In this document: positions 12,720-28,625 of the stretch, one piece after another
Layout of the letters: each line of letters starts with the position of its first letter
How positions within the stretch are numbered: position 1 is the first letter of the stretch
Source: Geobacteraceae bacterium
Lineage (GTDB): Bacteria > Desulfobacterota > Desulfuromonadia > Geobacterales > Pseudopelobacteraceae
Length of the DNA: 43,392 nt
Direction: 5' to 3'
Assembly: GCA_025355325.1 (NCBI GenBank)
Contig: JANXZX010000185.1
Span: 1 to 43,392, forward strand
Notes under the pieces: model-generated
Told to the model about the DNA's origin: nothing
The model's database searches: none
The model's input: the letters and a program-made list of their open reading frames with translations, nothing else
Made by a program: the position numbers and the translations under genes

Positions 12720-13676
12720 TTAATAATCAGCGGCATCCGGAATCATTCTCGAAAGGATAACTTCCACCGCGGAATACGGGTCAATACGCTGGTCATTCAT
12801 ATCTGTCACCAACGTGTCGAGTGAGTCATTCTTTGCCATGAATGAGAGCGCCCTTTTCAGGAGAGAGTCGCGGAGGATCGCCATAAAGTGGCGTTGGGTG
12901 CGTTCACGCAGAAAGGCATTAATCGTTCCGCTCGACAGAAAATAACTGCGATGGGCCAGAAGTTCATCGGTCAGCTCCGAAATGCCGGTGCCGCGCTGTG
13001 CCTCGGTCTTCATGACCTGCGGGCTCCAGCTCCCCTCTACGGCATGACGCATGTCCAGCATGGTGCTCAGTTCGCGGGCGGTCCGGTCCGCCCCGTCGCG
13101 GTCGGCCTTGTTGACGACAAAAATATCGCCTATTTCAAGAATTCCGGCCTTGATGGCCTGGATGTCATCGCCGAGTCCCGGCACCATAACGACGCAGGTT
13201 GTGTGTGCTTCCTTGACGATATCCACCTCGTCCTGCCCGACTCCAACGGTTTCAATAATAATAATTTCCATTCCGAGGGCATCCATCACCAGGGCAACAT
13301 CCGAAGTCGAACGCGACAATCCACCTAATGCACCGCGCGTGGCCAAACTGCGGATGAACACCCCTTCGTCGCAGGAGTGGCGGTTCATTCTAATGCGATC
13401 ACCCAGGATTGCGCCGCCGGTAAAGGGGCTGGTGGGATCGATTGCCACCACGCCTACTTTTTTGCCCCGCTCTCGGAACGAGGCGGTCAGTTGATCGACC
13501 AGGGTCGATTTTCCGGCGCCCGGAGGGCCGGTAATGCCGATGATAAAGGCGTTGCCGGTGTGGGGATACAGTTGTTTCAATTCTTCAATCGCCTGGGGGC
13601 GACCATCGTCAATATCGCGCATCAGCCGGGCTGCGGCGCGGATGTTGCCTTCTAAAACCTGATCAGCAAGAGTCAT
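12720..13676 (-). CDS. meaB: Methylmalonyl-CoA mutase-associated GTPase MeaB
   Basis: MeaB (ArgK family) protects B12-dependent methylmalonyl-CoA mutase and assists cofactor loading. The 318-residue protein carries the P-loop GITGPPGAGKSTLVDQL near residue 50, the switch segments AIDPTSPFTGGAILGDRIRM and ETVGVGQDEVD, and the NKADRDGA base-specificity motif. Length fits the family. The mutase B12-binding subunit is encoded at the far right end of the window, so both halves of this system are present though not adjacent. It is divergent from the formate dehydrogenase operon. Confidence 0.93.
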   Translation of the reverse strand: MTLADQVLEGNIRAAARLMRDIDDGRPQAIEELKQLYPHTGNAFIIGITGPPGAGKSTLVDQLTASFRERGKKVGVVAIDPTSPFTGGAILGDRIRMNRHSCDEGVFIRSLATRGALGGLSRSTSDVALVMDALGMEIIIIETVGVGQDEVDIVKEAHTTCVVMVPGLGDDIQAIKAGILEIGDIFVVNKADRDGADRTARELSTMLDMRHAVEGSWSPQVMKTEAQRGTGISELTDELLAHRSYFLSSGTINAFLRERTQRHFMAILRDSLLKRALSFMAKNDSLDTLVTDMNDQRIDPYSAVEVILSRMIPDAADY

Positions 13677-13862
13677 GGGATACCTGATGTTGAATGGATT
13701 GGTAGAGTGAGTTTCTATAACATGTTATCGGAGGGAATTCAACGTGTGGTGAGTTGGTGGTGACTCCGGTTCAGGGAGGAATGTTGATTTTTGGTTTGTA
13801 GTGATCCTGGTAAGCGTGCATGCCTATGGCGAACATTATTCTTGGAATTTGTTAGTAATTGC

Positions 13863-13902
13863 TTGACAGTGGATATCGCATGCAGTAAATACAGAAATAT
13901 AG
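13863..13902 (+). promoter_or_regulatory. Candidate promoter of the formate dehydrogenase operon
   Basis: A TTGACA box (13863-13868) lies about 17 bases before an AT-rich TAAATA stretch (13886-13891). The region up to 14040 is AT-rich and is conserved in the second copy at 20991-21180, which includes the TTGACA. Spacing is right for a sigma-70 promoter, but the -10 match is poor. It lies upstream of the riboswitch, leaving a leader of over 150 bases. Confidence 0.35.
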
Positions 13903-14055
13903 TTTTATTTTAGTTGATAATTAAATATTCCAGTTTAAATAACTATTTTTGTGGATCAGTGCCTCTCTTCCGATCATGAGTTTAGCTGTCCTATGAAATA
14001 AGTAGAACATGGTTTATATATTAAATATGTCTGTTTCATGCAGACTGAGCTCAAA

Positions 14056-14165
14056 CGTATCCATCTCCGAGCCGCACACGCCTTAAGAAACGGTTTCCAT
14101 GGTCTGTGGCCTGCGGGTATCGCTGGAAACGGCGCTGCCTTCCTTTTGAAAAGGAGATGGTTGGC
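14056..14165 (+). ncRNA. Molybdenum cofactor (Moco) riboswitch
   Basis: The leader of fdnG folds into a closed structure. CCATCTCC (14061-14068) pairs perfectly with GGAGATGG (14153-14160) as the closing stem. GTTTCCA (14093-14099) pairs with TGGAAAC (14124-14130), and a CCTTT/AAAGG hairpin lies at about 14142-14152. The conserved Moco-motif segments CTCCGAGCC, GGTTTCC, GAAACGG-GCTGCC and GGAGATGG are all present in order. Moco RNAs are known upstream of molybdenum cofactor, molybdate transport and molybdoenzyme genes. The aptamer ends about 30 bases before the ribosome binding site, so control of translation or early termination is likely. A Tuco (tungsten) variant cannot be excluded. Confidence 0.85.
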
Positions 14166-14207
14166 ATCGGCAACGATTACAACCATTAATTGAAGGAGGA
14201 ACAGTAC

Positions 14208-17200
14208 ATGTCGGTATCGCGAAGAGACTTTTTCAAGCTCTCCGGCTCTGGCCTGGCGGCTGCCACTCTCGGTTTAAACCTCGCTCCCGTCGAGGCGAAG
14301 GCCGAGGAACTGGCAATCCGTTACGCCAAGGAGACGACCACCATTTGCCCCTACTGCGCGGTCGGGTGCGGCATTGTTGTACACACCCAGGGTGGCGAGG
14401 TTATCAATTCCGAAGGAGACTCAGATCATCCGATCAATGAGGGTGCCCTCTGTGCAAAGGGGTCTTCGATCTATCAGCTGCGCCATAATCCGGCACGCCT
14501 GACCAAGCCGATGTATCGTGCTGCCGGTGCTTCCGAATGGAAAGAGGTAACCTGGGATTGGACGATACAAGAGATTGCCAAACGGGTAAAACAAACACGT
14601 GACTCAACATATCAGACCACCAGCAAAATAAAAGTCAAGGAAAAGGTCGGCACTGTAGAGGTTGAAAAAGAGATTGAGGCGGTCGTTAATCGCACCATGG
14701 GTATTGCCTCTGTCGGCAGTGCGGCACTTGATAACGAAGAATGTTACCTGTACCAGAAGTTTCTGCGTGGTCTGGGGTTGGTCTATATCGAACATCAGGC
14801 GCGTATTTGCCACAGCTCGACGGTACCAGCCCTGGCCGAGTCGTTCGGACGCGGTGCCATGACCAATCACTGGATTGATATTAAAAATGCCGATGTCATC
14901 CTCATTATGGGGGCCAACCCGGCAGAAAATCACCCAATTTCCTTCCGCTGGGTCACTAAAGCCAAGGAAGCCGGGGCTAAGGTTATTGTCGTTGATCCCC
15001 GTTTTACCCGCAGCGCTTCCAAAGCCGACCTGTACGCGCCACTCCGTTCCGGTACTGATATCGCCTTTCTGGGCGGAATGATTAACTACATCGTCCAGAA
15101 CAAACTCTATTTTGAAGAATACGTTGTTAATTATACCAATGCGACTTACCTGGTAAATGCAGATTTCAAAATGCCGGGTGATCTGAATGGCCTTTTCTCC
15201 GGCTATGACGCCAAAAAACGGGGCTATGACACCGCGTCATGGTCGTTCCAGAAAAATGCCGATGACAGCGTCAAGAAGGATATGACCATTCAGGATCCAA
15301 GCTGCGTATTTCAGCTTTTGAAGAAGCATTATTCCCGCTATACGCCGGAGCTGGTAAGTAAGATTACCGGCACCTCAAAGGAAAAACTGGTCGAGATATA
15401 TCAACTGTATGGTTCTACCGGTAAGCCGGACCGGGCCGGTACGGAAATGTATGCCATGGGGTGGACCCAGCATACCGTTGGTGTACAGAATATCAGGACT
15501 ATGGCTATTATTCAGTTGTTGCTCGGCAATATTGGTGTTGCCGGCGGCGGCATCAACGCCATGCGCGGTGAGGGGAACGTTCAGGGATCGACCGATGCCG
15601 GACTGCTGTTCCACCTTTTACCCGGATATCTCGCCGTCCCTTCTGCTGACTTGACAGATCTGCCGTCATATATCAAAAAACACACCCCCGAGAGCAAGGA
15701 TCCGCAAAGCGCGAACTGGTGGCAGAATCGCGGCAAATACATGACCAGCTATCTGAAGGCGATTTACGGGGACAAGGCGACTAAGGAGAATGATTTCGGC
15801 TATTCATGGCTTCCCAAGCTGGACCCGGGGATGAACGGTTCATGGCTGATGATCTTCGACAACATGATCAAGAACAAATACAAAGGTTTCTTTGCATGGG
15901 GGCAGAACCCCGCTTGTTCCGGATCCAACACCAACAAGGTGCGGCATGCCCTTGCCAAGCTGGAATGGATGGTGGCAGTCAATATTTTTGATAACGAGAC
16001 AGCTTCGTTCTGGAAGGGCCCCGGTCTGGATCCTTCTACGATTAAGACGGAGGTGTTTTTGCTGCCTGCTGCCATTTCATACGAAAAAGAAGGGAGCATC
16101 AGTAACTCCGGTCGCTGGGTGCAATGGCGCAACAAGGCGGTAAATCCGGCCGGTCAAAGCAAGCCTGATGCCGAGATCATCCATGAGTTGTATCAGAAGC
16201 TTAAGCAGATGTACGCTAAAGAGGGAGGGGCGCTTCCGGAACAGTTGCTCAACCTTACCTGGAACTATGGCTTCAAACGTGCCGACGGCACGATAAAGAA
16301 TGTTGATATCCACGCTGTTGCCAAGGAGATCAACGGCTATTACCTCGAAGATGTGGAGGATAAGCCCAAACCTCTCAAACCGGGAGACAAGCCGCTACCC
16401 GCCAAAAATCCGTGGGATCCCAAGAAGCTGCTCGGCAAGAAAGGGGAGTTGATTGCCGGTTTTGCCAATCTCCAGGCTGATGGAACAACATCCTGCGGTA
16501 ACTGGATCTATTGCCAGAGCTACAATGAGAAGGGGAACATGATGGCTCGCCGCGGCAAGAAAGATCCCTCCGGAATAGGTCTGTTCCCGGAATGGTCATG
16601 GGCTTGGCCGGTAAATCGTCGTATCCTCTATAACCGTGCCTCAACCAATCTGGAAGGAAAGCCGTATAACCCGAAAAAGGCGGTTGTTTACTGGAATCCG
16701 AATGCCGTACTGCCGACCGGCGCCGTGGGCGCCTGGGTGGGCGATGTACCTGACGGCCCATGGCCTCCGATGGCAAATGAAAGAGATGGGAAGAAGCCTT
16801 TCATTATGCAGAAGGATGGTGTTGCCTCCATATTTGGTCCCGGTCTGAAGGATGGGCCTTTCCCGGAACATTATGAACCGTTGGAGAGCCCTCTGGCTGA
16901 GAACCTTATGTCCAAGCAGATGACCAATCCTGCTATCAGGCTTTTTGCCGATCCTGCCGTTAAAGAAGATGTTATAGCCAGCAACGACGCCCGCTTTCCT
17001 CTGGTTGCCTCCACCTATCGGGTCACCGAACACTGGCAGACCGGGGTCATGACCCGTAACACTCCATGGCTGCTGGAGCTGCAACCGCAACAGTTCTGCG
17101 AGATCAGTATTGAACTGGGCAAGGAGAAAAATATTAAAAACGGCGACATGGTTGAAATTTCCTCTGCCCGCGGCAAAATCGATGCCGTGGCCATAGTTAC

Positions 17201-17387
17201 CTCGCGTGTGAAGCCTTTCCAGATAGGGGGCAAGACGGTACACCAGATCGGTATGCCATGGTGTTTCGGCTGGCACACCCCCAATGTAGGGGATTCTGCG
17301 AATCTGCTGACCCCGACGATTGGTGACGCAAATACGATGATTCCCGAAACCAAGGCCTTTATGGCCAACGTACAGAGAAAGGGGTGA
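14208..17387 (+). CDS. fdnG: Formate dehydrogenase, molybdopterin catalytic subunit (FdnG type)
   Basis: The catalytic subunit oxidises formate to CO2 in the periplasm and passes electrons to FdnH. The 1059-residue protein begins with a twin-arginine signal (SRRDFFKLSGSGLAAATLGL), then the [4Fe-4S] motif CPYCAVGCGIVVH with a fourth cysteine in GALCAKG. The active-site position is cysteine (ARICHSSTVP), where E. coli FdnG has selenocysteine, so no Sec decoding is needed. GRGAMTNHW and MGANPAENHP follow, and the molybdopterin dinucleotide-binding domain is C-terminal. ATG 14208 is chosen because AAGGAGGA lies just upstream. It is the first gene of fdnGHI-fdhE-mobA and is led by a Moco riboswitch. 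Confidence 0.94.
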   Translation: MSVSRRDFFKLSGSGLAAATLGLNLAPVEAKAEELAIRYAKETTTICPYCAVGCGIVVHTQGGEVINSEGDSDHPINEGALCAKGSSIYQLRHNPARLTKPMYRAAGASEWKEVTWDWTIQEIAKRVKQTRDSTYQTTSKIKVKEKVGTVEVEKEIEAVVNRTMGIASVGSAALDNEECYLYQKFLRGLGLVYIEHQARICHSSTVPALAESFGRGAMTNHWIDIKNADVILIMGANPAENHPISFRWVTKAKEAGAKVIVVDPRFTRSASKADLYAPLRSGTDIAFLGGMINYIVQNKLYFEEYVVNYTNATYLVNADFKMPGDLNGLFSGYDAKKRGYDTASWSFQKNADDSVKKDMTIQDPSCVFQLLKKHYSRYTPELVSKITGTSKEKLVEIYQLYGSTGKPDRAGTEMYAMGWTQHTVGVQNIRTMAIIQLLLGNIGVAGGGINAMRGEGNVQGSTDAGLLFHLLPGYLAVPSADLTDLPSYIKKHTPESKDPQSANWWQNRGKYMTSYLKAIYGDKATKENDFGYSWLPKLDPGMNGSWLMIFDNMIKNKYKGFFAWGQNPACSGSNTNKVRHALAKLEWMVAVNIFDNETASFWKGPGLDPSTIKTEVFLLPAAISYEKEGSISNSGRWVQWRNKAVNPAGQSKPDAEIIHELYQKLKQMYAKEGGALPEQLLNLTWNYGFKRADGTIKNVDIHAVAKEINGYYLEDVEDKPKPLKPGDKPLPAKNPWDPKKLLGKKGELIAGFANLQADGTTSCGNWIYCQSYNEKGNMMARRGKKDPSGIGLFPEWSWAWPVNRRILYNRASTNLEGKPYNPKKAVVYWNPNAVLPTGAVGAWVGDVPDGPWPPMANERDGKKPFIMQKDGVASIFGPGLKDGPFPEHYEPLESPLAENLMSKQMTNPAIRLFADPAVKEDVIASNDARFPLVASTYRVTEHWQTGVMTRNTPWLLELQPQQFCEISIELGKEKNIKNGDMVEISSARGKIDAVAIVTSRVKPFQIGGKTVHQIGMPWCFGWHTPNVGDSANLLTPTIGDANTMIPETKAFMANVQRKG

Positions 17388-17392
17388 GCGCC

Positions 17393-18193
17393 ATGGCCGA
17401 AAGTATCAATCAAGCGACACGTAAGGGCTTTCTGGTGGACACCTCTCGCTGTATCGGCTGCCGTTCGTGCCAGGTAGCCTGCAAGCAGTGGAACAAGCTG
17501 GAAGCAGACAAAACAAATAACCTGGGTACCTATGAAAATCCCCGTGACCTGACCCCGGCCCTGTACAACCGTATCCGCTTTGTGGAGGGTGAGGGAGCGA
17601 ACGGGGATGTCACCTGGCAATTTCTGAACGAGCGCTGCATGCACTGCGGCGACGCCGGCTGTATGAAGGTTTGCCCCTCCCCCGGCGCACTCTACCGTAC
17701 CAAGGACGGTATTGTGACCTACAACAAGGAAAAGTGCATCTCCTGCAAATACTGCGTCTCTGCCTGTCCCTTCAACATTCCCCGTTATGGGATGGATGAC
17801 AAGGTCAGTAAATGTCACCTGTGCCAGAGTCGCATTGAAGGGGGCATGACTCCTGCCTGCGCCAAGGCGTGCCCCACCGGAACCCTGAAGTTCGGTAAGC
17901 GCAGCGATTTGATCGCCACTGCCCAGGCGGCAAAAAAGACTCTCTATGGGGTAGACGTTCTGAACGGCTTGGGGGTGGTGTATGCCCTGGAGGGGCCTCC
18001 GGAAAAATACGGACTGCCGGCCAGTCCCAGCATACCCTTGTCGATCTTCCTCTGGAAGGACGTTATCAAACCGCTCGGCATCCTCGGTTTCTGGGGCAGT
18101 ATCGGAGCCGTACTGTTGCACTATGTGACCATAGGTCCCAAGAAGATCGACGCCGAGAATGGCGAGGAGAAGGAGGAGGCGGGTCATGAGTAA
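17393..18193 (+). CDS. fdnH: Formate dehydrogenase iron-sulfur subunit (FdnH type)
   Basis: This subunit carries electrons from FdnG to the cytochrome b subunit. The 266-residue protein has four cysteine clusters of the [4Fe-4S] ferredoxin type: CIGCRSCQVAC, CMHCGDAGCMKVC, CISCKYCVSAC and CHLCQ followed by CAKACPTG. A single membrane helix near the C-terminus (PLGILGFWGSIGAVLLHYV) anchors it, as in E. coli FdnH. The ATG at 17393 follows an AAAGGGG site; a GTG at 17384 is an alternative. It starts six bases after fdnG ends and overlaps the next start by eight bases. Confidence 0.94.
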   Translation: MAESINQATRKGFLVDTSRCIGCRSCQVACKQWNKLEADKTNNLGTYENPRDLTPALYNRIRFVEGEGANGDVTWQFLNERCMHCGDAGCMKVCPSPGALYRTKDGIVTYNKEKCISCKYCVSACPFNIPRYGMDDKVSKCHLCQSRIEGGMTPACAKACPTGTLKFGKRSDLIATAQAAKKTLYGVDVLNGLGVVYALEGPPEKYGLPASPSIPLSIFLWKDVIKPLGILGFWGSIGAVLLHYVTIGPKKIDAENGEEKEEAGHE

Positions 18194-18803
18194 CTACATT
18201 GAGCGCTTCAGCACAAGCGAACGTGTGCTGCACTGGATCGTCACCTGCAGTTTTTTTACCTTGCTGCTCTCCGGGTTAGGGCTGTTCTCCCGCCTGTTCA
18301 ACGGTTACTTTGCCCTGTTTGGAGATGGTCGCAACGCCATCCTGGTTCACAAGATCGCGGGGATTGTGTTCTTCCTTAGCTCGCTGTACATGTTCCTCAG
18401 TCACAAAAAGGATGTCGCCACCTTTGATGATGACGATAAACTCTGGATTTCATCCAAGGGGGGCTACCTCTCGCGGGACGAGACCCACTTCAACATCGGA
18501 AAATACAACCCCGGACAAAAGCTGTTTGCCATTTTTATAGCCGTCACTACCCTCGTTTTGGGGATTACCGGGCTTTTTATCTGGCTGCCTACCGTCTTTC
18601 CCCGTTGGATCGTACAGCTGTCGCTCATGATTCACGGGCTGATGTTCGTTGGTGCAATTATGTTTGTGGTAGTGCATGTTTATCTGGCCACCATCGGCAA
18701 TCCGGGCACTATTGAGGCGATGCTGTACGGGGATGTCCGCAAGCGGTGGGCCCGGAAGCACCATCCCAAATGGTATAAAGAGGTCACCGGTGAAAATCCC
18801 TAG
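18186..18803 (+). CDS. fdnI: Formate dehydrogenase cytochrome b556 subunit (FdnI type)
   Basis: The 205-residue integral membrane protein passes electrons to the quinone pool. It has four hydrophobic segments and the family histidines: SERVLHWIVTCSFFTLLLSG in helix 1, HKIAGIVFFLSS in helix 2, then later helices with HGLMFVGAIMFVVVHVYLA. The C-terminal EAMLYGDVRKRWARKHHP motif is typical of FdnI. The ATG at 18186 overlaps the end of fdnH and has a strong GGAGGAGG site; upstream in-frame codons would only add a basic artefact. Confidence 0.92.
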   Translation: MSNYIERFSTSERVLHWIVTCSFFTLLLSGLGLFSRLFNGYFALFGDGRNAILVHKIAGIVFFLSSLYMFLSHKKDVATFDDDDKLWISSKGGYLSRDETHFNIGKYNPGQKLFAIFIAVTTLVLGITGLFIWLPTVFPRWIVQLSLMIHGLMFVGAIMFVVVHVYLATIGNPGTIEAMLYGDVRKRWARKHHPKWYKEVTGENP

Positions 18804-18852
18804 ATACCTACTGGGGGCAGCTTAATCAGCTGGTCTCTTCGACAGGAGCATT

Positions 18853-19695
18853 ATGACACCCAATCAGCGTAAAGTGGCGTTACTTGATGACATCTCTGCA
18901 CGTGTCCCGGAATATGGCGAAATCTTCGCCCTGTTTCGGGGCATCTTGTCCTATTTTGACATCCGGCAGGGAGATACCGGAATCTCGTTCGTTCCCGATT
19001 TGACACTTCGTCAAGAGAGGATACAGGGCGGGTTTTCATTAGTGTCCGCAGAGTCGATGGTCGTGGACATACCGCAGGCCGCAGCTTTTCTCATCGGCCT
19101 GCTGTCCGTGACCAGCGAATACAGCCGGGATGGCGACGCTGAGCTGAAACGGATTGTTGACGCTCTGACCGAAGGGAAACTGGATCTGACGACGCTCTTT
19201 GCCGCCTGTCTGCAGCGTGATCGGAGCAAGATCGAAGCCGCTGCGGAAACCTGCACGGTACAGGCCGCTTTACTGGAATTCGCCCTGGAAACCGTTCTCA
19301 AAGCGGCCCTGGAACCATATGCGGTCGCGCTGCCGGAAGGTGAATTCGACGGCTGGCAGGAAGGGTATTGCCCGGTGTGCGGTTCCCGCGCCGGGATGGG
19401 GGAATTCGTCGGTGATGAAGGGCGGCGTTATCTTTCTTGTTGCACCTGTTTCTTCAAATGGCCGTATAAACGGCTACAGTGCCCCTATTGCAGCAACGAC
19501 AATACGGAGACTCTGTCCTATTTCACGGTTGACGAGGGGCCAACCAGGGTGGATGTCTGCCGAAAATGCAGCCGCTACCTCAAAACCAGGGATTCCCGCA
19601 AGGGACATGCGGACGTGCCGTTGGAGATAGAGGATCTGGCAACCATCCATATTGATCTCTTGGCGGGCAGGGAAGGGTTTGAACGGGGAAAGTGA
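18853..19695 (+). CDS. fdhE: Formate dehydrogenase accessory protein FdhE
   Basis: FdhE is needed for maturation of the periplasmic formate dehydrogenase. The 280-residue protein has the family's rubredoxin-like cysteine pairs in the second half: CPVCGSRAG, CCTC in the LSCCTCFFKW stretch, CPYCSND and CRKCSRY. These bind a metal or iron. The N-terminal half is helical. The start follows an AGGAG site, 49 bases after fdnI. It is inside the fdn operon, so it probably serves the enzyme encoded just upstream. Confidence 0.92.
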   Translation: MTPNQRKVALLDDISARVPEYGEIFALFRGILSYFDIRQGDTGISFVPDLTLRQERIQGGFSLVSAESMVVDIPQAAAFLIGLLSVTSEYSRDGDAELKRIVDALTEGKLDLTTLFAACLQRDRSKIEAAAETCTVQAALLEFALETVLKAALEPYAVALPEGEFDGWQEGYCPVCGSRAGMGEFVGDEGRRYLSCCTCFFKWPYKRLQCPYCSNDNTETLSYFTVDEGPTRVDVCRKCSRYLKTRDSRKGHADVPLEIEDLATIHIDLLAGREGFERGK

Positions 19696-19725
19696 ACAAA
19701 GCTGGCAACGGTGTGAGAGAATATC

Positions 19726-20403
19726 ATGCTACTTAACCATATAGTCGATCATATTCCCCCTCTGAATGATGTGACCGGGGTTATCCTGGCCGGGGGGCAA
19801 TCAAACCGCATGGGAAGCAACAAAGCACTCCTTCCCTGCAAGTATGGACTCTTTATCGAGGCGATCCATCGTAAACTGACTGCGCTGTTTGATAACGTCC
19901 TCATCGTCACCAACGCCCCCGAACAGTACGCTTTTCTCTCTTGCCACACGGTAATGGATCTCTATCCCGGTATGGGAACACTGGCCGGACTGCATGCCGG
20001 GCTGTACCACAGCAGAACCTCCCATATCTTTGCAGTTGCCTGCGACATGCCTTACCTGAATAGCGCCCTCATCAGAAAGATTGCTGCCCTGCGCGACGGG
20101 GCGGCTGTCGTCATACCCGAGGGAGATAAGGGTCTTGAACCGCTGCATGCCCTGTATGGCAGTGAATGCCTGCCGCCTATGGAACGGGCGCTGCTGGCCG
20201 GTGAGAGACGAATCGTCTCCTTCTTCTCCGAAGTGGCGGTCCGCTATCTTTTTCGGGACACCGTAGCCGAGCTCGACCCATCCTTTGATTCCTTCCGGAA
20301 CATCAATACGCCATCCGACTACTTTGCGCTGCGAGACCTGGAGCGGAACGCAGATATGCCGGAACCCTCCACCACTGCGCATGAGAACGTGGCTGTTGCC
20401 TGA
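19726..20403 (+). CDS. mobA: Molybdenum cofactor guanylyltransferase MobA
   Basis: MobA attaches GMP to molybdopterin to make the bis-MGD cofactor used by formate dehydrogenase. The 225-residue protein has the nucleotidyltransferase signature GVILAGGQSNRMGSNKALL near residue 17 and the metal-binding VACDMPYLN near residue 100. A further family motif, EPLHALY, lies near residue 140. It is the last gene of the fdn operon, 30 bases after fdhE, which fits a dedicated cofactor supply. A terminator follows. Confidence 0.93.
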   Translation: MLLNHIVDHIPPLNDVTGVILAGGQSNRMGSNKALLPCKYGLFIEAIHRKLTALFDNVLIVTNAPEQYAFLSCHTVMDLYPGMGTLAGLHAGLYHSRTSHIFAVACDMPYLNSALIRKIAALRDGAAVVIPEGDKGLEPLHALYGSECLPPMERALLAGERRIVSFFSEVAVRYLFRDTVAELDPSFDSFRNINTPSDYFALRDLERNADMPEPSTTAHENVAVA

Positions 20404-20456: not shown

Positions 20457-20503
20457 GTAAAAAGGGAGTCATCACATTTGTAGATGGCTCCCTTTTTTTA
20501 CAG
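20457..20503. terminator. Terminator shared by mobA and the hldD remnant
   Basis: GTAAAAAGGGAG pairs with CTCCCTTTTT across a loop and is followed by a T run. The same hairpin in altered form lies after intact hldD (24633-24679), so it is part of the duplicated block. Confidence 0.8.
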
Positions 20504-20958
20504 CGAATATGCGAGGGCGTTAATCCCCCAAGCGCTTGCCGGGAACCAGATAGTTTCTTATATAATCAGCGACCGCCTCTTCCACGGGCATAACCTGTTA
20601 CGAATACCCGGCTGCGCGGATTTTTGAGGTCTCGGAACAAGTCAGATACTGGTAGGTGTTGCGGATCGATTCCGGCATGTCGATATACTCGATGTCGATC
20701 GGGCGATTCATGGCATTGAAAACAGCGCCGGCCAGCCGGTTCCAGCTTACGGTCGTACCGCCGCCGACGTTGAAGATGCCGTTTGCGTTCTTTTCTGTGA
20801 GGAAGTGGAGCGTCATGGCTGCGGCATCGTTAACGTAGATAAAGTCGCGCAACTGTTCCCCGTCACCATATTCAGGGCGGTGGGACTTGAACAATCGCAG
20901 GCAACCGGTGGCGCCGATCTGCTCATACGCTTTCAGGGTGTGTCCGCCCGGCAGACGT
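20459..20958. repeat. Duplicate of the hldD 3' region (matches 24635-25112 and 25459-25488)
   Basis: Over about 500 bases this stretch follows the hldD terminator and 3' two thirds of intact hldD in the same orientation, with scattered substitutions. One block of 354 bases is missing: CGCTTTCAG (as at 25104-25112) is followed directly by what comes after CGCTTCCAG (25458-25466). The near-identical nine-base flanks mark a microhomology deletion. The block then runs into a copy of the fdnG upstream region. Confidence 0.92.
20520..20958 (-). pseudogene. Truncated ADP-glyceromanno-heptose 6-epimerase (hldD remnant)
   Basis: The translated remnant matches intact HldD (24696-25688) from RLPGGHTL, then jumps to KAYEQIGATGC and continues to the C-terminus. 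It lacks the first 67 or so codons with the NAD-binding motif, has a 118-codon in-frame deletion, and a premature stop where intact HldD has K (AAA to TAA, at 20598-20600). In the 111 residues after the deletion I count five differences from the intact protein. The original start is missing. It is not expected to give a functional enzyme. Confidence 0.92.
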
Positions 20959-21494
20959 ACATGTCTATGGCGAACGTTATTCTTGGAATTTGTTAGTAAT
21001 TGCTTGACAGTGGTTATCGCATGCAGTAAATACATAAATATAGTTTTATTATAGTTTAATTAAATATTCCAGTTTAATAACTATTTATGTGGATCAGTGC
21101 CTCTCGTCCGATCATGCGTTTCGCTGTTTTGTAAAATAAGTAGAACAGAGTTTATATATTAAAAATGTCTGTTTCATGCAGATCGGACATTATTGAAGGA
21201 GGAACAGTACATATCGGTATCGCGAAGAGACTTTTTCAAGCTCTCCGGCTCAGGCCTGGCGGCTGCTACTCTCGGTTTAAACCTCGCTCTCGTCGAGGCA
21301 AAGGCCGAGAAGCTGGCAATCCGCTACGCCAAGGAGACGACCACCATCTGCCCCTACTGCGCGGTCGGGTGCGGCATTGTTGTACACACCCAGGGTGGCG
21401 AGGTTATCAACTCCGAAGGAGACTCAGATCATCCGATCAATGAGGGTGCCCTCTGTGCAAAGGGGTCTTCGATCTATCAGCTGCGCCATAATCA
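20951..21494. repeat. Duplicate of the fdnG promoter and start (matches 13811-14046 and 14184-14493)
   Basis: This copy shares the AT-rich upstream stretch (including TTGTTAGTAATTGCTTGACA) and the first 95 codons of fdnG. It lacks about 135 bases corresponding to 14047-14183, which is the Moco riboswitch. Homology ends abruptly after CTGCGCCATAAT. It abuts the hldD remnant directly. The likely joint is in GGCAGACGTACATG, where intact hldD reads GGCAAGCGT and the fdnG upstream reads GGTAAGCGT. Confidence 0.92.
21211..21493 (+). pseudogene. Truncated duplicate of formate dehydrogenase fdnG 5' end
   Basis: This encodes the Tat signal and [4Fe-4S] domain of FdnG (VSRRDFFKLSGSG to IYQLRHN) and then runs into unrelated sequence, with a stop at 21562-21564. 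The ATG is changed to ATA (21211-21213), although the AAGGAGGA site is kept. Only three residues differ from FdnG over about 95 (start, P to L, E to K). A TTG start at 21193 is formally possible. No catalytic domain remains, so it is most likely dead. Confidence 0.9.
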
Positions 21495-21680: not shown

Positions 21681-22040
21681 ATGAAAATGGCTATGGTTCT
21701 TAATTTAGAAATATCTCACTCTGCAACAAAATCAGTGTCGATTTTATTATTAGCCATATACTTCTGTTTTGCACTGGTTTCGCCGGTAATAGCTGCTGCA
21801 CCATCGGCCCTTTCAGACACCATCCTGAGCGCCACATCAGTAAAACTTGATTGGTCGGACAATACCGCCGACGAGACCGCGTTCGTGGTGGAGCGCAAAC
21901 CCGCAACCGGTGCCTATGCGCAGATCGGCAGCGTGGGTGCGAATATCACTACCTTCAGCGATAGTGGCGTTACCGCTGGCACAAACTACTGCTACCATGT
22001 TTATGCCCAGACTCCGGGGGGCAATTGTTGCTCAAAATAA
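21681..22040 (+). CDS. Short exported fibronectin type III domain protein, probably truncated
   Basis: The 119-residue product has a signal peptide (hydrophobic core SILLLAIYFCFALVSPVIAA) and one fibronectin type III domain, with the typical LSATSVKLDWSDNTADETAF and SDSGVTAGTNYCYHVYA segments. In Geobacter relatives such domains usually sit in long secreted or cytochrome proteins. Here the protein stops right after the domain with an untypical GGNCCSK end. It is probably the surviving 5' end of a larger gene. The start follows an AAGGAAAGG site. It lies in a low-GC stretch between the duplicate block and the octahaem cytochrome. Confidence 0.6.
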   Translation: MKMAMVLNLEISHSATKSVSILLLAIYFCFALVSPVIAAAPSALSDTILSATSVKLDWSDNTADETAFVVERKPATGAYAQIGSVGANITTFSDSGVTAGTNYCYHVYAQTPGGNCCSK

Positions 22041-22391
22041 CATATTCAGGTGAAAAAAATATTCAGCCAATACTGCAAAGTGGCGGGGAACTTTAGGAGC
22101 TGCTTATGTCAAAAAAAATTCGATAACTACATTTGAGACTTTCCTGGCTTTACGACATCCGCTGTGTTGTCTAACCGTGCAATCTGCAACCCATTCCTTT
22201 CTCCGTCATACTTCTAGCCATCCCATGCAGTCTGTCTATTATTCAGTATTCCTTTCCTCCTCTCAAAAGCGTCAAAAATAAGAATTTTATGTTATTAATT
22301 GCTTGATTATAATAAGCTTAAAATATAGAATCCGTCTGCCTTGTAATCGGTAATACTAACATCATTTCCGCAAACAAAAGAGGTCTGCCCT
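22041..22391. other. Low-GC intergenic stretch, no gene seen
   Basis: About 350 bases with no convincing coding frame. It contains TGTTATTAATTGCTTGA (22290-22306), which differs at one of 17 positions from the element upstream of fdnG (13850-13866). A regulatory or promoter role for the downstream cytochrome is possible. Confidence 0.5.
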
Positions 22392-24536
22392 ATGAAGTCC
22401 TGCACCAGTTTCTTAACTGTAGTCGCCATCTTCACCTTAGTTTCTCTTTTAAGCATAGTTCGTGCCGAGTCAGCTTCTCCTTCGGGTTATGCCGGATCAG
22501 CCAGCTGTCAGGAGTGCCACGAAAATTTTTACACCCTTTGGAGCAATTCTCGCCATCGAAATACCATCATCCCCTATAGCGATGACTTTGCCAAAAAGGA
22601 GCTGCTTACCCAGAAAACAGCCATTACAATCGGTAAATATAGCTACCTTGCCGATATCCGCCCTGGAGCCGGCAAGGTACTTGAGGCCGGTCCCGATGGC
22701 GCGAAGGAATATAGAATCGAATATGCTCTGGGAGGCAAGAAACTTTATTCCTTTCTCACCACCCTTGAGAATGGCCGGATTGAATCGCTCCCCTTGGGAT
22801 ACGATCTTACGAAAAAAGAATGGTATGAGGCGGAAAATGCCATCGATGCCCCAGCACCGGATGGAGAAAAAAAGCTGAACGTTTACTGGCAAAACTATCC
22901 CTTCTTCGTTAGCGAGGCTTGCCCGAGCTGTCATGTAAGCCGCTTTGCAATCTCTTACGACCAGAAACAGAAGCGATATTCCGAAACATGGAACGAACCG
23001 GGGATCAACTGCGAAACCTGCCATGGTCCGTCGAAAGAGCATAATGTTGCAATGCGCAATGTTCCTAAGGGAACGCCGGTTGGCAACCCAAAAATAATCA
23101 GTGTTAAGAAGATGGGCGCGGCACGGCGGAGCGACCTCTGTGTCACCTGTCACGCCAAGCAGGTCGCTATTACCGCGACCTATAACCCTGGCGACCGCTA
23201 TTTTGATCACTATGACCTGACTATGCTGGAAAGCAATGAGTTTTATCCTGATGGTCGCGATCAGGGTGAAAATTACACCATGACAGGGTGGATGATGAAT
23301 AAGTGTGTTAAGGATGGCAAGCCGGATTGCATGCACTGCCATACTTCAAGTGGTCGCTACCGTTTCAAAGATACGGCAAAGGCTAATGATGCCTGCCTTC
23401 CGTGTCATGCGGAACGGGTCAAGAATGTTGCCCGGCACAGTCACCACAAGATCGATGGGCCGGGGAGTTACTGTATTTCGTGTCATATGCCAAAAACTAT
23501 TTTTGCCCGAATGCAATGGAGCGACCATTCGCTGAGCCCACCATCTCCGAAAGCTACTCTGGAGTTTGGTTCTCCCAACGCATGTACCCTCTGCCACAAG
23601 GAGAAAGATGCTGCCTGGGCCAATAACGAAGTTCGTGCTTGGTTTCCGGATGATTACCAGGAGGCAATTTTGAAGCCGGCGCGATTGATTAGCGCTGCCC
23701 GGAAACGTGATTGGACAAAACTGCCGGATATGCTCGCCTATCTGAAAAGCAATGAGCGAGGTGAAGTAAATACGGCGTCACTCATAAGGCTGCTGCGGTG
23801 GTGCCGGGACGAGCGGGTTGCCCCGGCATTGCGTTCGGCTTTGCAGGATGAATTGACCCTTGTGAGGGCCGCAGCTGCAGAGTCTCTCGGGGCGTACCCT
23901 TCCGCTGCCAGTGCCGCAGCTCTGCTTGTGGCGGCAACCGATGACTACCGTTTGGTACGAGTGAAGGCTGCCGCAAGCCTGAACACATTTCCCCGCAATC
24001 TGCTGGCAAAAGATGCCGCACAGAAAGTGCAGCGGGCATTTGATGAATACCTAGCCTCTCTGATGCTGGAACCGGACAAAAGCGGTACCTGGCTCACCAT
24101 TGGCAATTATCGCCTGAAACGGGATGAATTTGCCGATGCAGCTACTGCATTTCAGTCCGCTCTGGATCTTGCACCCCGCTCGGTTCAGGCGCTGCTGAAC
24201 CTTGCCTATATACACTACCGCTTAGGTAATGTGGAGAAAGCAACAGGTGTGTTGGCAACCGCCATTGAGATTGAACCGGATAACAAAAGTACATTGACTA
24301 TGGCAAAACGCTTTAGCTTTGGCCCTGCTTCTTTAGATAAAGCGAACACGCATTTTTCCGAATTGCTGAAGTATAACCCGCGTTCCGCTCAGGCAGCATA
24401 TGGCCTCTGTATGGTCAGTCCGGCGAATCGTTTATCTGAAGCGCTAGATTGGTGCCGCAAAGCGGTAGAGCTTGCTCCGGAGGAAAAGAAATATAGCGGT
24501 GCACTTAAACGAAAGATGTCGGAATCTAAAAAGTGA
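22392..24536 (+). CDS. Octahaem c-type cytochrome with HEAT and TPR repeats
   Basis: The 714-residue exported protein has a signal peptide (residues about 1-25) and eight CxxCH haem-binding motifs: CQECH, CPSCH, CETCH, CVTCH, CMHCH, CLPCH, CISCH and CTLCH. The pattern resembles cytochrome c554-like multihaem proteins. Residues about 440-540 form HEAT-type repeats (VAPALRSALQDELTLVRAAA) and about 555-700 form TPR repeats (WLTIGNYRLKRDEFADAATAF). The combination suggests an electron-transfer domain fused to a protein-binding arm. The partner is unknown. It sits between a duplicated fdnG fragment and hldD, outside any clear operon. Confidence 0.9.
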   Translation: MKSCTSFLTVVAIFTLVSLLSIVRAESASPSGYAGSASCQECHENFYTLWSNSRHRNTIIPYSDDFAKKELLTQKTAITIGKYSYLADIRPGAGKVLEAGPDGAKEYRIEYALGGKKLYSFLTTLENGRIESLPLGYDLTKKEWYEAENAIDAPAPDGEKKLNVYWQNYPFFVSEACPSCHVSRFAISYDQKQKRYSETWNEPGINCETCHGPSKEHNVAMRNVPKGTPVGNPKIISVKKMGAARRSDLCVTCHAKQVAITATYNPGDRYFDHYDLTMLESNEFYPDGRDQGENYTMTGWMMNKCVKDGKPDCMHCHTSSGRYRFKDTAKANDACLPCHAERVKNVARHSHHKIDGPGSYCISCHMPKTIFARMQWSDHSLSPPSPKATLEFGSPNACTLCHKEKDAAWANNEVRAWFPDDYQEAILKPARLISAARKRDWTKLPDMLAYLKSNERGEVNTASLIRLLRWCRDERVAPALRSALQDELTLVRAAAAESLGAYPSAASAAALLVAATDDYRLVRVKAAASLNTFPRNLLAKDAAQKVQRAFDEYLASLMLEPDKSGTWLTIGNYRLKRDEFADAATAFQSALDLAPRSVQALLNLAYIHYRLGNVEKATGVLATAIEIEPDNKSTLTMAKRFSFGPASLDKANTHFSELLKYNPRSAQAAYGLCMVSPANRLSEALDWCRKAVELAPEEKKYSGALKRKMSESKK

Positions 24537-24632: not shown

Positions 24633-24679
24633 CCATATAAAAGGAGTCACCACGAATGTGGATGGCTCCTTTTATATGG
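24633..24679. terminator. Long perfect-stem terminator after hldD
   Basis: CCATATAAAAGGAG (24633-24646) pairs perfectly with CTCCTTTTATATGG (24666-24679). It closes the minus-strand cobalt operon and can also stop plus-strand transcription from the cytochrome gene. Confidence 0.85.
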
Positions 24680-24695
24680 ATAAGTATAGGGGATG

Positions 24696-25688
24696 TTAGT
24701 CCCCCAGGCGCTTGCCGGGGACCAGATAGTTCCGTATATAATCGGCAACCGCCTCTTCCACGGGCATAACCGGTTTCGAATATCCGGCTGAGCGGATTTT
24801 GGATGTTTCGGCACAAGTCAGATACTGGTAGGTGTTGCGGATTGAATCCGGCATGTCGATATACTCGATGTCGATCATGCGATTCATGGCATTGAAAACA
24901 GCTCCAGCCAGCCGGTTCCAGCTTACGGTCGTACCGCCACCGACGTTGAAGATGCCGTTTGCGTTCTTTTCTGTGAGGAAGTGGAGCGTCATGGCTGCGG
25001 CATCCTTAACGTAGATAAAGTCGCGCAACTGTTCCCCGTCACCGTATTCGGGACGGTGGGACTTGAACAATCGCAGGCAACCGGTGGCGCCGATCTGCTC
25101 ATACGCTTTCAGCACGAGCGAGCGCATTTCCCCCTTGTGCTGCTCATTGGGGCCGTACACGTTGAAATATTTGATGCCGACAATTTTATCGAGCAACCCC
25201 TGGCTCAGTGCCCACACATCGAAGAGCTGCTTGGAGTAGCCATACATGTTCATCGGCCGGAGCTGCGCCAGATTGCTGTCGTCATCTATAAAGCCGTGCT
25301 CGCCGTTTCCGTACGTCGCAGCGCTGGATGCGTAGATAAAGCGGGCATTGGCGGCCAGTGCGGTTATCGCCAGTTTGCGGGAATATTCAAAGTTGTTTTT
25401 GACCAGGTACGTGGCGTCCGGTTCGGTCGTGGCCGAACAGGCCCCCAGATGAACTACCGCTTCCAGGGTGTGTCCGCCCGGCAAGCGTCCGGCCAGTGAA
25501 CCGTCATCCAGCAGACGCTCGAAGACATCCTTTTCCAGATAATCCATAAAGCGGAGTGCCGCCAGGTTGCGCCATTTGTCCGTGAGACCCAAGTGATCCA
25601 CAATCAGGATGTCTTCCCTGCCAAGACTGTTCAGGTGCTGGACCACAGCGCTTCCTATCAGGCCTGCTCCTCCGGTTACGATGATCAT
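24696..25688 (-). CDS. hldD: ADP-L-glycero-D-manno-heptose 6-epimerase
   Basis: HldD (RfaD) converts ADP-D-glycero-manno-heptose to the L-glycero form for lipopolysaccharide core. The 330-residue protein is a short-chain dehydrogenase-type epimerase: VTGGAGLIGSAVVQ binds NAD at the N-terminus, and the YGYSKQLFD stretch holds the catalytic Tyr-x3-Lys. The HRPEYGDGEQLRDFIYV segment is typical of HldD. Its ATG overlaps the cbiO stop by four bases, so it reads as the last gene of the cobalt transport operon. A 5'-truncated copy is at 20520-20958. Confidence 0.93.
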   Translation of the reverse strand: MIIVTGGAGLIGSAVVQHLNSLGREDILIVDHLGLTDKWRNLAALRFMDYLEKDVFERLLDDGSLAGRLPGGHTLEAVVHLGACSATTEPDATYLVKNNFEYSRKLAITALAANARFIYASSAATYGNGEHGFIDDDSNLAQLRPMNMYGYSKQLFDVWALSQGLLDKIVGIKYFNVYGPNEQHKGEMRSLVLKAYEQIGATGCLRLFKSHRPEYGDGEQLRDFIYVKDAAAMTLHFLTEKNANGIFNVGGGTTVSWNRLAGAVFNAMNRMIDIEYIDMPDSIRNTYQYLTCAETSKIRSAGYSKPVMPVEEAVADYIRNYLVPGKRLGD

Positions 25689-28382: not shown

Positions 28383-28445
28383 TATTCAAAGTCACATTTC
28401 GCGTTTTTCACTCTCCCAGTCCCCCGGGAAATGCTGAGTGTAAGA

Positions 28446-28625
28446 ATCAAGGCAGGTCTTCTGGCTCGCGATTCATTCTCCAGGCGCCTTCCCAGTCAGT
28501 CAACCAGTGGCATTGTGCCCTTCGTCATCGCTTACAGCGGCGGGTCCGCGGGGGAATGGCTCCATCGGAGCGTCACCCCTCTTCCCTATCAAGCCCTTGC
28601 GGGCACCACGATTCGTTATTCAATT
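28446..28625 (-). ncRNA. Cobalamin riboswitch
   Basis: Read on the minus strand, the stretch starts with GGTGCCCGCAAGGGCTTGA, passes GCCGCTGTAAGCGATGACGA and ATGCCACTGG, then GGGAAGG, and ends AGCCAGAAGACCTGCC. These are the conserved blocks of the cobalamin (adenosylcobalamin) aptamer in the right order. It lies 160 bases upstream of cbiM with a terminator between, so it should repress cobalt uptake when B12 is plentiful. Ends are approximate. Confidence 0.94.

Follow-up and report, generated by a model that had tools for sequence, protein, structure and literature searches.

The window analysed here, a stretch of 43,392 nucleotides, is one contig of the 4.17-Mb genome of a Geobacter-like bacterium, which is assembled in 241 contigs with an estimated contamination of 3.3%. 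The genes relevant to this study follow one another in the order meaB, a Moco riboswitch, fdnG-fdnH-fdnI-fdhE-mobA, the block described below, a short fn3-like ORF, a cytochrome/TPR gene, hldD, and a cobalt-type ABC ATPase gene with its neighbours. The block thus lies between the formate-dehydrogenase operon (fdn) and the sugar-epimerase gene hldD. The gene meaB (12720-13676, minus strand; TIGR00750) adjoins hldD in most of the relatives in which both genes were seen. The fdn run (14208-20403, plus strand) starts with fdnG, encoding the catalytic subunit (14208-17387; TIGR01553, 1399.6 bits), and ends with a mobA-like gene (19726-20403, plus strand) matching the NTP_transf_3 and MobA models. 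The intact fdnG leader (13815-14207, plus strand) carries promoter-like hexamers and the Moco riboswitch (RF01055; PMC2408646) at 14053-14172. Downstream of the block, the short ORF (21681-22040, plus strand) shows a weak fibronectin-III match (PF00041, E 9e-4, below the Pfam cut-off) and is possibly a fragment. It is followed by the gene for a multihaem cytochrome/TPR protein (22392-24536, plus strand; Cytochrome_C7 and TPR matches), near full-length relatives of which were detected at 43-47% in three of 38 other genus genomes. The intact hldD (24696-25688, minus strand; TIGR02197, 367 bits) has a predicted hairpin on its 3' side (24633-24679). Elsewhere in the window, a Cobalamin riboswitch was found at 28434-28625, upstream of cobalt-transport-type genes, and positions 1-77 at the contig end correspond to the 3' part of a 5S rRNA gene.

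Self-BLAST of the window revealed that the block (20458-21493) consists of the 3' part of hldD with its downstream hairpin, joined to the fdnG upstream region and the first 94 codons of fdnG. Both pieces are direct-orientation copies of the neighbours that flank the block on either side, which confirms the chimera of an hldD and an fdnG piece reported in the preliminary description. Individual matches, all direct, were obtained for 20458-20936 with 24636-25112 (90.4%, E 0.0), 20928-20953 with 25458-25483 (96%), 20956-21182 with 13815-14044 (91.3%, E 2e-87) and 21188-21493 with 14184-14490 (96.4%, E 3e-142). These four matches are far beyond chance, and the rest of the genome yielded no further copy of the pieces.

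The hldD remnant (hldD'; 20458-20953, minus strand) comprises hldD codons 69-77 and 193-330 together with the 3' flank, including the copied hairpin (20457-20501), and covers 24636-25112 and 25458-25483 of its parent. The first 68 codons are absent, as the 5' truncation noted earlier implied; a second loss, which had been missed, is an internal in-frame deletion of 345 nt (25113-25457, 115 codons) bounded by the near-repeats CGCTTTCAG and CGCTTCCAG. In addition, hldD' carries an in-frame stop at codon 305. The fdnG-derived part covers 13815-14044 and about 14184-14490 of its parent. Its upstream region (20956-21210, plus strand) keeps the promoter-like hexamers and has lost the leader stretch that contains the riboswitch; a search of 20900-21300 against Rfam gave nothing at E up to 1, so the riboswitch is entirely lost and the description of the copy as riboswitch-less is correct. 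The fdnG' remnant (21211-21493, plus strand) retains codons 1-94, its match stopping one base into codon 95 instead of spanning the 95 codons previously counted, and its start codon at 21211 has changed from ATG to ATA. Neither remnant possesses the intact start and reading frame of a functional gene. Judged by their sequences, both look dead: hldD' because it has no 5' end and contains a stop, fdnG' because the start codon, the Moco riboswitch and everything beyond codon 94 are lost. Nothing in our results suggests that the block has a coding function.

The two pieces meet at 20947-20959, where the parents have GG(C/T)AAGCGT in common. In register, the join region reads GGCAAGCGT in hldD, GGTAAGCGT in the fdnG leader and GGCAGACGT in the copy. 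The parents are identical over AAGCGT (25483-25488 and 13812-13817) and at eight of nine bases over the longer motif. The hexamer to which the junction had been assigned is therefore present in both parents, but the copy itself reads AGACGT. An in-register identical run of at least six bases touching a random join of both regions occurred in just 276 of 200000 trials, and the join thus probably used microhomology. Taken together, the block sits between both parents and connects the 3' part of the unit, without inversion, to the 5' part, with short homology at the join. This order and this join agree with the junction of a head-to-tail duplication whose unit, of about 11.7 kb, ran from fdnG to hldD, and the tandem topology deduced in the preliminary description stands.

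The same description had raised two separate gene-fragment insertions, for example by transposition, as an alternative. The meaB-hldD gap does accept DNA, as inserts of 0.7-3.9 kb are found there in four of 38 distinct relatives; the fragments of the block, however, abut within 2 bases in the very order and orientation that a tandem junction predicts, and both source genes flank the site. Inverted-repeat pairs of at least 40 nt are absent from the window, and inspection of the edge sequences revealed no element-like ends at the block edges. As a single abutting junction in direct orientation suffices, separate insertions are unnecessary and appear highly improbable. A metagenome assembly artefact joining two strains might be suspected from the number of contigs and the estimated contamination, but we regard it as very unlikely too: the parents match at just eight of nine bases at the hldD'/fdnG' join, the window contains no N, a second hldD or fdnG allele is present on no other contig, and five separate joins or deletions would all need to be errors.

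Comparison of the locus in 38 distinct relatives, defined as those with hldD at 75% identity or more, revealed a hldD-meaB gap of 25-108 bp in 24 and of 0.7-3.9 kb in four, all four having a hicB-like gene in the locus. For the remaining ten, meaB was not seen near hldD, within an examined flank of about 1.5 kb or less in most cases. Adjacency of hldD and meaB is common rather than universal, since other genes adjoin hldD in the longer stretches of L194, L195, L198 and L199. No fdnG match above 60% identity was detected around hldD in the 38 relatives (flanks of 2 bases to 10 kb). This type of fdnG is present in 13 other genus genomes, each time on a contig other than that of hldD, and 12 of these 13 have a Moco riboswitch directly upstream of fdnG (eight above and four below the Rfam cut-off). 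Because relatives have hldD beside meaB and fdnG on other contigs, the data suggest, most simply, that the whole fdn-to-cytochrome segment (window 13.7-24.6 kb) is derived and was inserted in a former meaB-hldD gap.

A comparison with relatives had been proposed as a means of recognising the ancestral arrangement and the tandem intermediate. It showed that fdnG and hldD are not neighbours in other genomes; none of 38 other genus genomes carried an intact tandem intermediate, which is a weak test as no close relative is among them. The hldD'/fdnG' join was likewise found in none of these 38 genomes, the stretch 20956-21182, copied from upstream of fdnG, had no match in any of them, and hldD' was matched at about 82% identity at best. 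No donor or sister genome for the hldD' and fdnG' alleles was therefore recovered among them, the closest genome examined being that with about 82% at hldD'.

Several observations on the relatives are recorded here in their own right. A hicB-like gene stands beside hldD in L174, L180, L181, L195 and L196, a recurrent insertion, and is accompanied in L174, L180 and L196 by a protein of 720-749 residues of unknown function. Matches to fn3 near hldD in L178 and L200 are merely 39-40% to a common domain, and the fn3-like ORF was not used as a clue. Position 201 of FdnG is a cysteine (TGC) in the window and an in-frame TGA in 10 of 11 relatives, the other cysteine case being L184 (genome G010). Of 39 genus genomes, 30 have a tRNA-Sec above the Rfam cut-off, but the host genome (G000) and G010 have none; G023 (L213), which has TGA and likewise no tRNA-Sec above the cut-off, argues against strict coupling. 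In L183 and L205 the tRNA-Sec is found upstream of fdnG, at a distance of about 340-450 bases.

Alignment of hldD' with hldD showed 17 synonymous and 7 replacement codons (one of them the stop) among 144 aligned codons, a count that replaces the five differences in 111 residues given in the preliminary description; third positions hold 18 of the 26 nucleotide differences. The full listing contains 35 differences, nine of which, at codons 188-192, were left out because the alignment is wrong where it meets the 345-nt deletion; in the pairwise alignment these bases belong with 25458-25483. Polarisation with the 38 relatives placed four of the eight replacement bases on the intact gene (two in codon 271, one each in codons 281 and 300), and at these positions the broken copy retains the commonest state of the genus. 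The other four are on the side of the copy (codons 228, 293 and 306 and the stop at 305), codon 305 being ambiguous by the base-count rule and assigned to the copy because it is a stop.

These numbers bear on the explanation originally offered, in which a tandem duplication of the 11.7-kb fdnG-to-hldD unit in one lineage was followed by loss of the middle of the second copy and by slow decay, so that all divergence arose later. The order, the orientation, the single junction and its microhomology are all accounted for in this way. A copy truncated at birth, however, should accumulate more replacement than synonymous changes, and hldD' displays the opposite. If hldD' had been dead since the duplication, four or fewer copy-side replacements given 18 synonymous bases would have a probability of P 3e-5 with unweighted sites and P 5e-4 with a transition weight of 5, and hldD and fdnG jointly of P 6e-6 to 2e-4. 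Among simulated dead hldD copies with a matched number of differing codons, as few replacements were seen in 0 of 255 (135 + 120, two settings). The fdnG' part, with 3 replacements, all copy-side by base counts, and 7 synonymous bases, gives no clear exclusion (P 0.05-0.12; 15 of 256 matched simulated dead fdnG copies had as few replacements) and, taken alone, points weakly in the same direction as hldD', against neutral decay. Equal rates of replacement and synonymous change on the copy, as expected of decay since the duplication, are thus contradicted strongly by hldD and weakly by fdnG. As two large deletions are also required, we consider duplication and decay within one lineage unlikely, and the claim that the copies diverged by decay was not borne out.

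Branch lengths (tree of 40 rows) led to a similar picture for hldD. For hldD', the branch length is 0.050 at third codon positions and 0.018 at positions 1+2, which indicates that this copy was constrained for most of its branch; the corresponding values for intact hldD are 0.107 and 0.021. As a rough estimate, hldD' would have been dead for about a fifth of its branch if the ratio of the intact gene (0.20) holds for the functional phase. The fdnG tree (17 rows) places nearly all change on the copy; as base counts assign codons 38 and 46 to the parent, this tree conflicts with them and was given no weight. On argument alone, we also set aside gene conversion between the copies, which might account for uneven divergence along their length, but not for the synonymous bias. 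Hence the two hldD alleles diverged largely while functional, since their differences are mainly synonymous, half of the replacement bases fall on the intact gene, and none of the 255 simulations had as few replacements. Divergence as functional genes, the pattern expected of a merodiploid between lineages, is therefore seen in hldD and, weakly when taken alone, in the same direction in fdnG. Accordingly, the divergence of the copies, from which the rearrangement had been called not recent, dates the split of two functional alleles and not the rearrangement.

The reading we favour, on balance a probable one, is that the block is a scar without function, left at the head-to-tail junction of a duplication whose two alleles had diverged, and that it formed by the tandem addition of DNA from a sister lineage. 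Its topology is that of the tandem duplication already proposed; what differs is where one copy came from and when. Sister-lineage DNA, starting at fdnG or farther left and extending into hldD, would have been added beside the resident copy, and its hldD end would have been joined illegitimately to fdnG upstream sequence at the short shared GGxAAGCGT. Circularisation with a single crossing-over, one-sided homologous integration or unequal exchange are possible routes, and the product would be a tandem merodiploid. The redundant parts would then have decayed, in an order we can only infer: most of one fdn copy would have gone and left the fdnG' stub, hldD' would have lost 345 nt and gained its stop, and fdnG' would have lost its start codon and riboswitch. 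Either the donor gave fdnG to mobA, the hairpin and hldD', with the fdnG' stub, the cytochrome gene and hldD being resident, or a circle closed at the join gave both hldD' and fdnG'; the data fit both versions alike.

Comparable rearrangements have been described in other bacteria. Natural transformation of Streptococcus pneumoniae makes merodiploids, i.e. tandem duplications (PMC3784515), and as reported there, uptake of donor DNA leads to a tandem duplication with two alleles, the redundant copy being free to change. The duplications in that account arise by unequal crossing-over at repeats (partial IS861 copies) and span about 100-900 kb, whereas the join studied here has about 8 shared bases and the unit about 11.7 kb. 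Conjugation in E. coli yielded partial duplications and homology-facilitated illegitimate recombination (PMC3240628). A duplication PCR product was reported in 56 of 60 clones; the remaining four were one-sided illegitimate events, three of them without junction homology (PMC3240628). The authors concluded that a partial duplicate results when incoming DNA is shortened at one end, closes into a circle and integrates through a single crossing-over, as could have happened here, although their system consisted of laboratory plasmids with cloned lacZ sequence (PMC3240628).

An equal substitution pattern would be left by long-lived tandem paralogues of a single lineage, in which both hldD and both fdn copies stayed functional for long until later deletions made the join and removed the rest. 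Such a history would explain the synonymous bias without a donor, and it is against the sister-lineage reading that no donor was found, that the fdnG part is weak and that the copy reads AGACGT at the join. On the other hand, an extra deletion would be needed to form the join, a redundant tandem copy would have to persist without homogenisation, and each other genus genome has at most one hldD match, so that we consider long-lived paralogues rather unlikely. We prefer two lineages over two functional copies long kept in one, because incoming DNA was concluded to leave partial duplicates in the laboratory (PMC3240628) and transformation can make tandem merodiploids (PMC3784515).

With regard to possible residual roles, the hairpins at 24633-24679 and 20457-20501 have best 50-nt windows of -32.1 and -23.3 kcal/mol, respectively, and the hldD-meaB gaps of 11 relatives fold more weakly than both (-4.8 to -16.5 kcal/mol). 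The copied hairpin keeps its fold, with one A-T to G-C double change relative to the parent. A terminator scan listed neither hairpin and found 3 sites against 5.2 expected. The hairpin at 20457-20501 may now end the mobA/fdn transcript, a terminator function being predicted from the folds, and the likely residual role of the block is a passive one, as a hairpin downstream of mobA. The promoter-like hexamers of fdnG, TTGACA and TAAATA at a distance of 17 bases, are unchanged in the copy; they were picked by eye and are unlisted by promoter scans, the consensus rule of one of which demands a T at position 6. They may represent a leftover promoter ahead of the fn3-like ORF and the cytochrome gene, and the scan listed no forward terminator-like site between 21494 and 22392. 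Capture of the cytochrome gene by this promoter was set aside, as the gene has a promoter-like site of its own just upstream (22303-22331), though the number of such sites in that stretch is compatible with chance (9 against 6.0 expected).

A more elaborate history, which we regard as quite doubtful, would connect several of these features. The lineage would have lost its own fdn, leaving the fdnG' stub, while losing selenocysteine, and would have regained a cysteine-type operon on transferred DNA ending in hldD from a sister lineage; the fdnG' promoter may then now help to transcribe the cytochrome gene without Moco control.

The block belongs to a familiar class of recombination scars, is decayed and is otherwise ordinary. 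Its divergence carries a warning that the divergence of copies does not date a rearrangement, and it is a small example of how the substitutions in a broken duplicate distinguish a copy that decayed after duplicating from two alleles that came together. For the genus, the locus records an fdn operon at meaB-hldD, a site that is filled with other DNA in some relatives.
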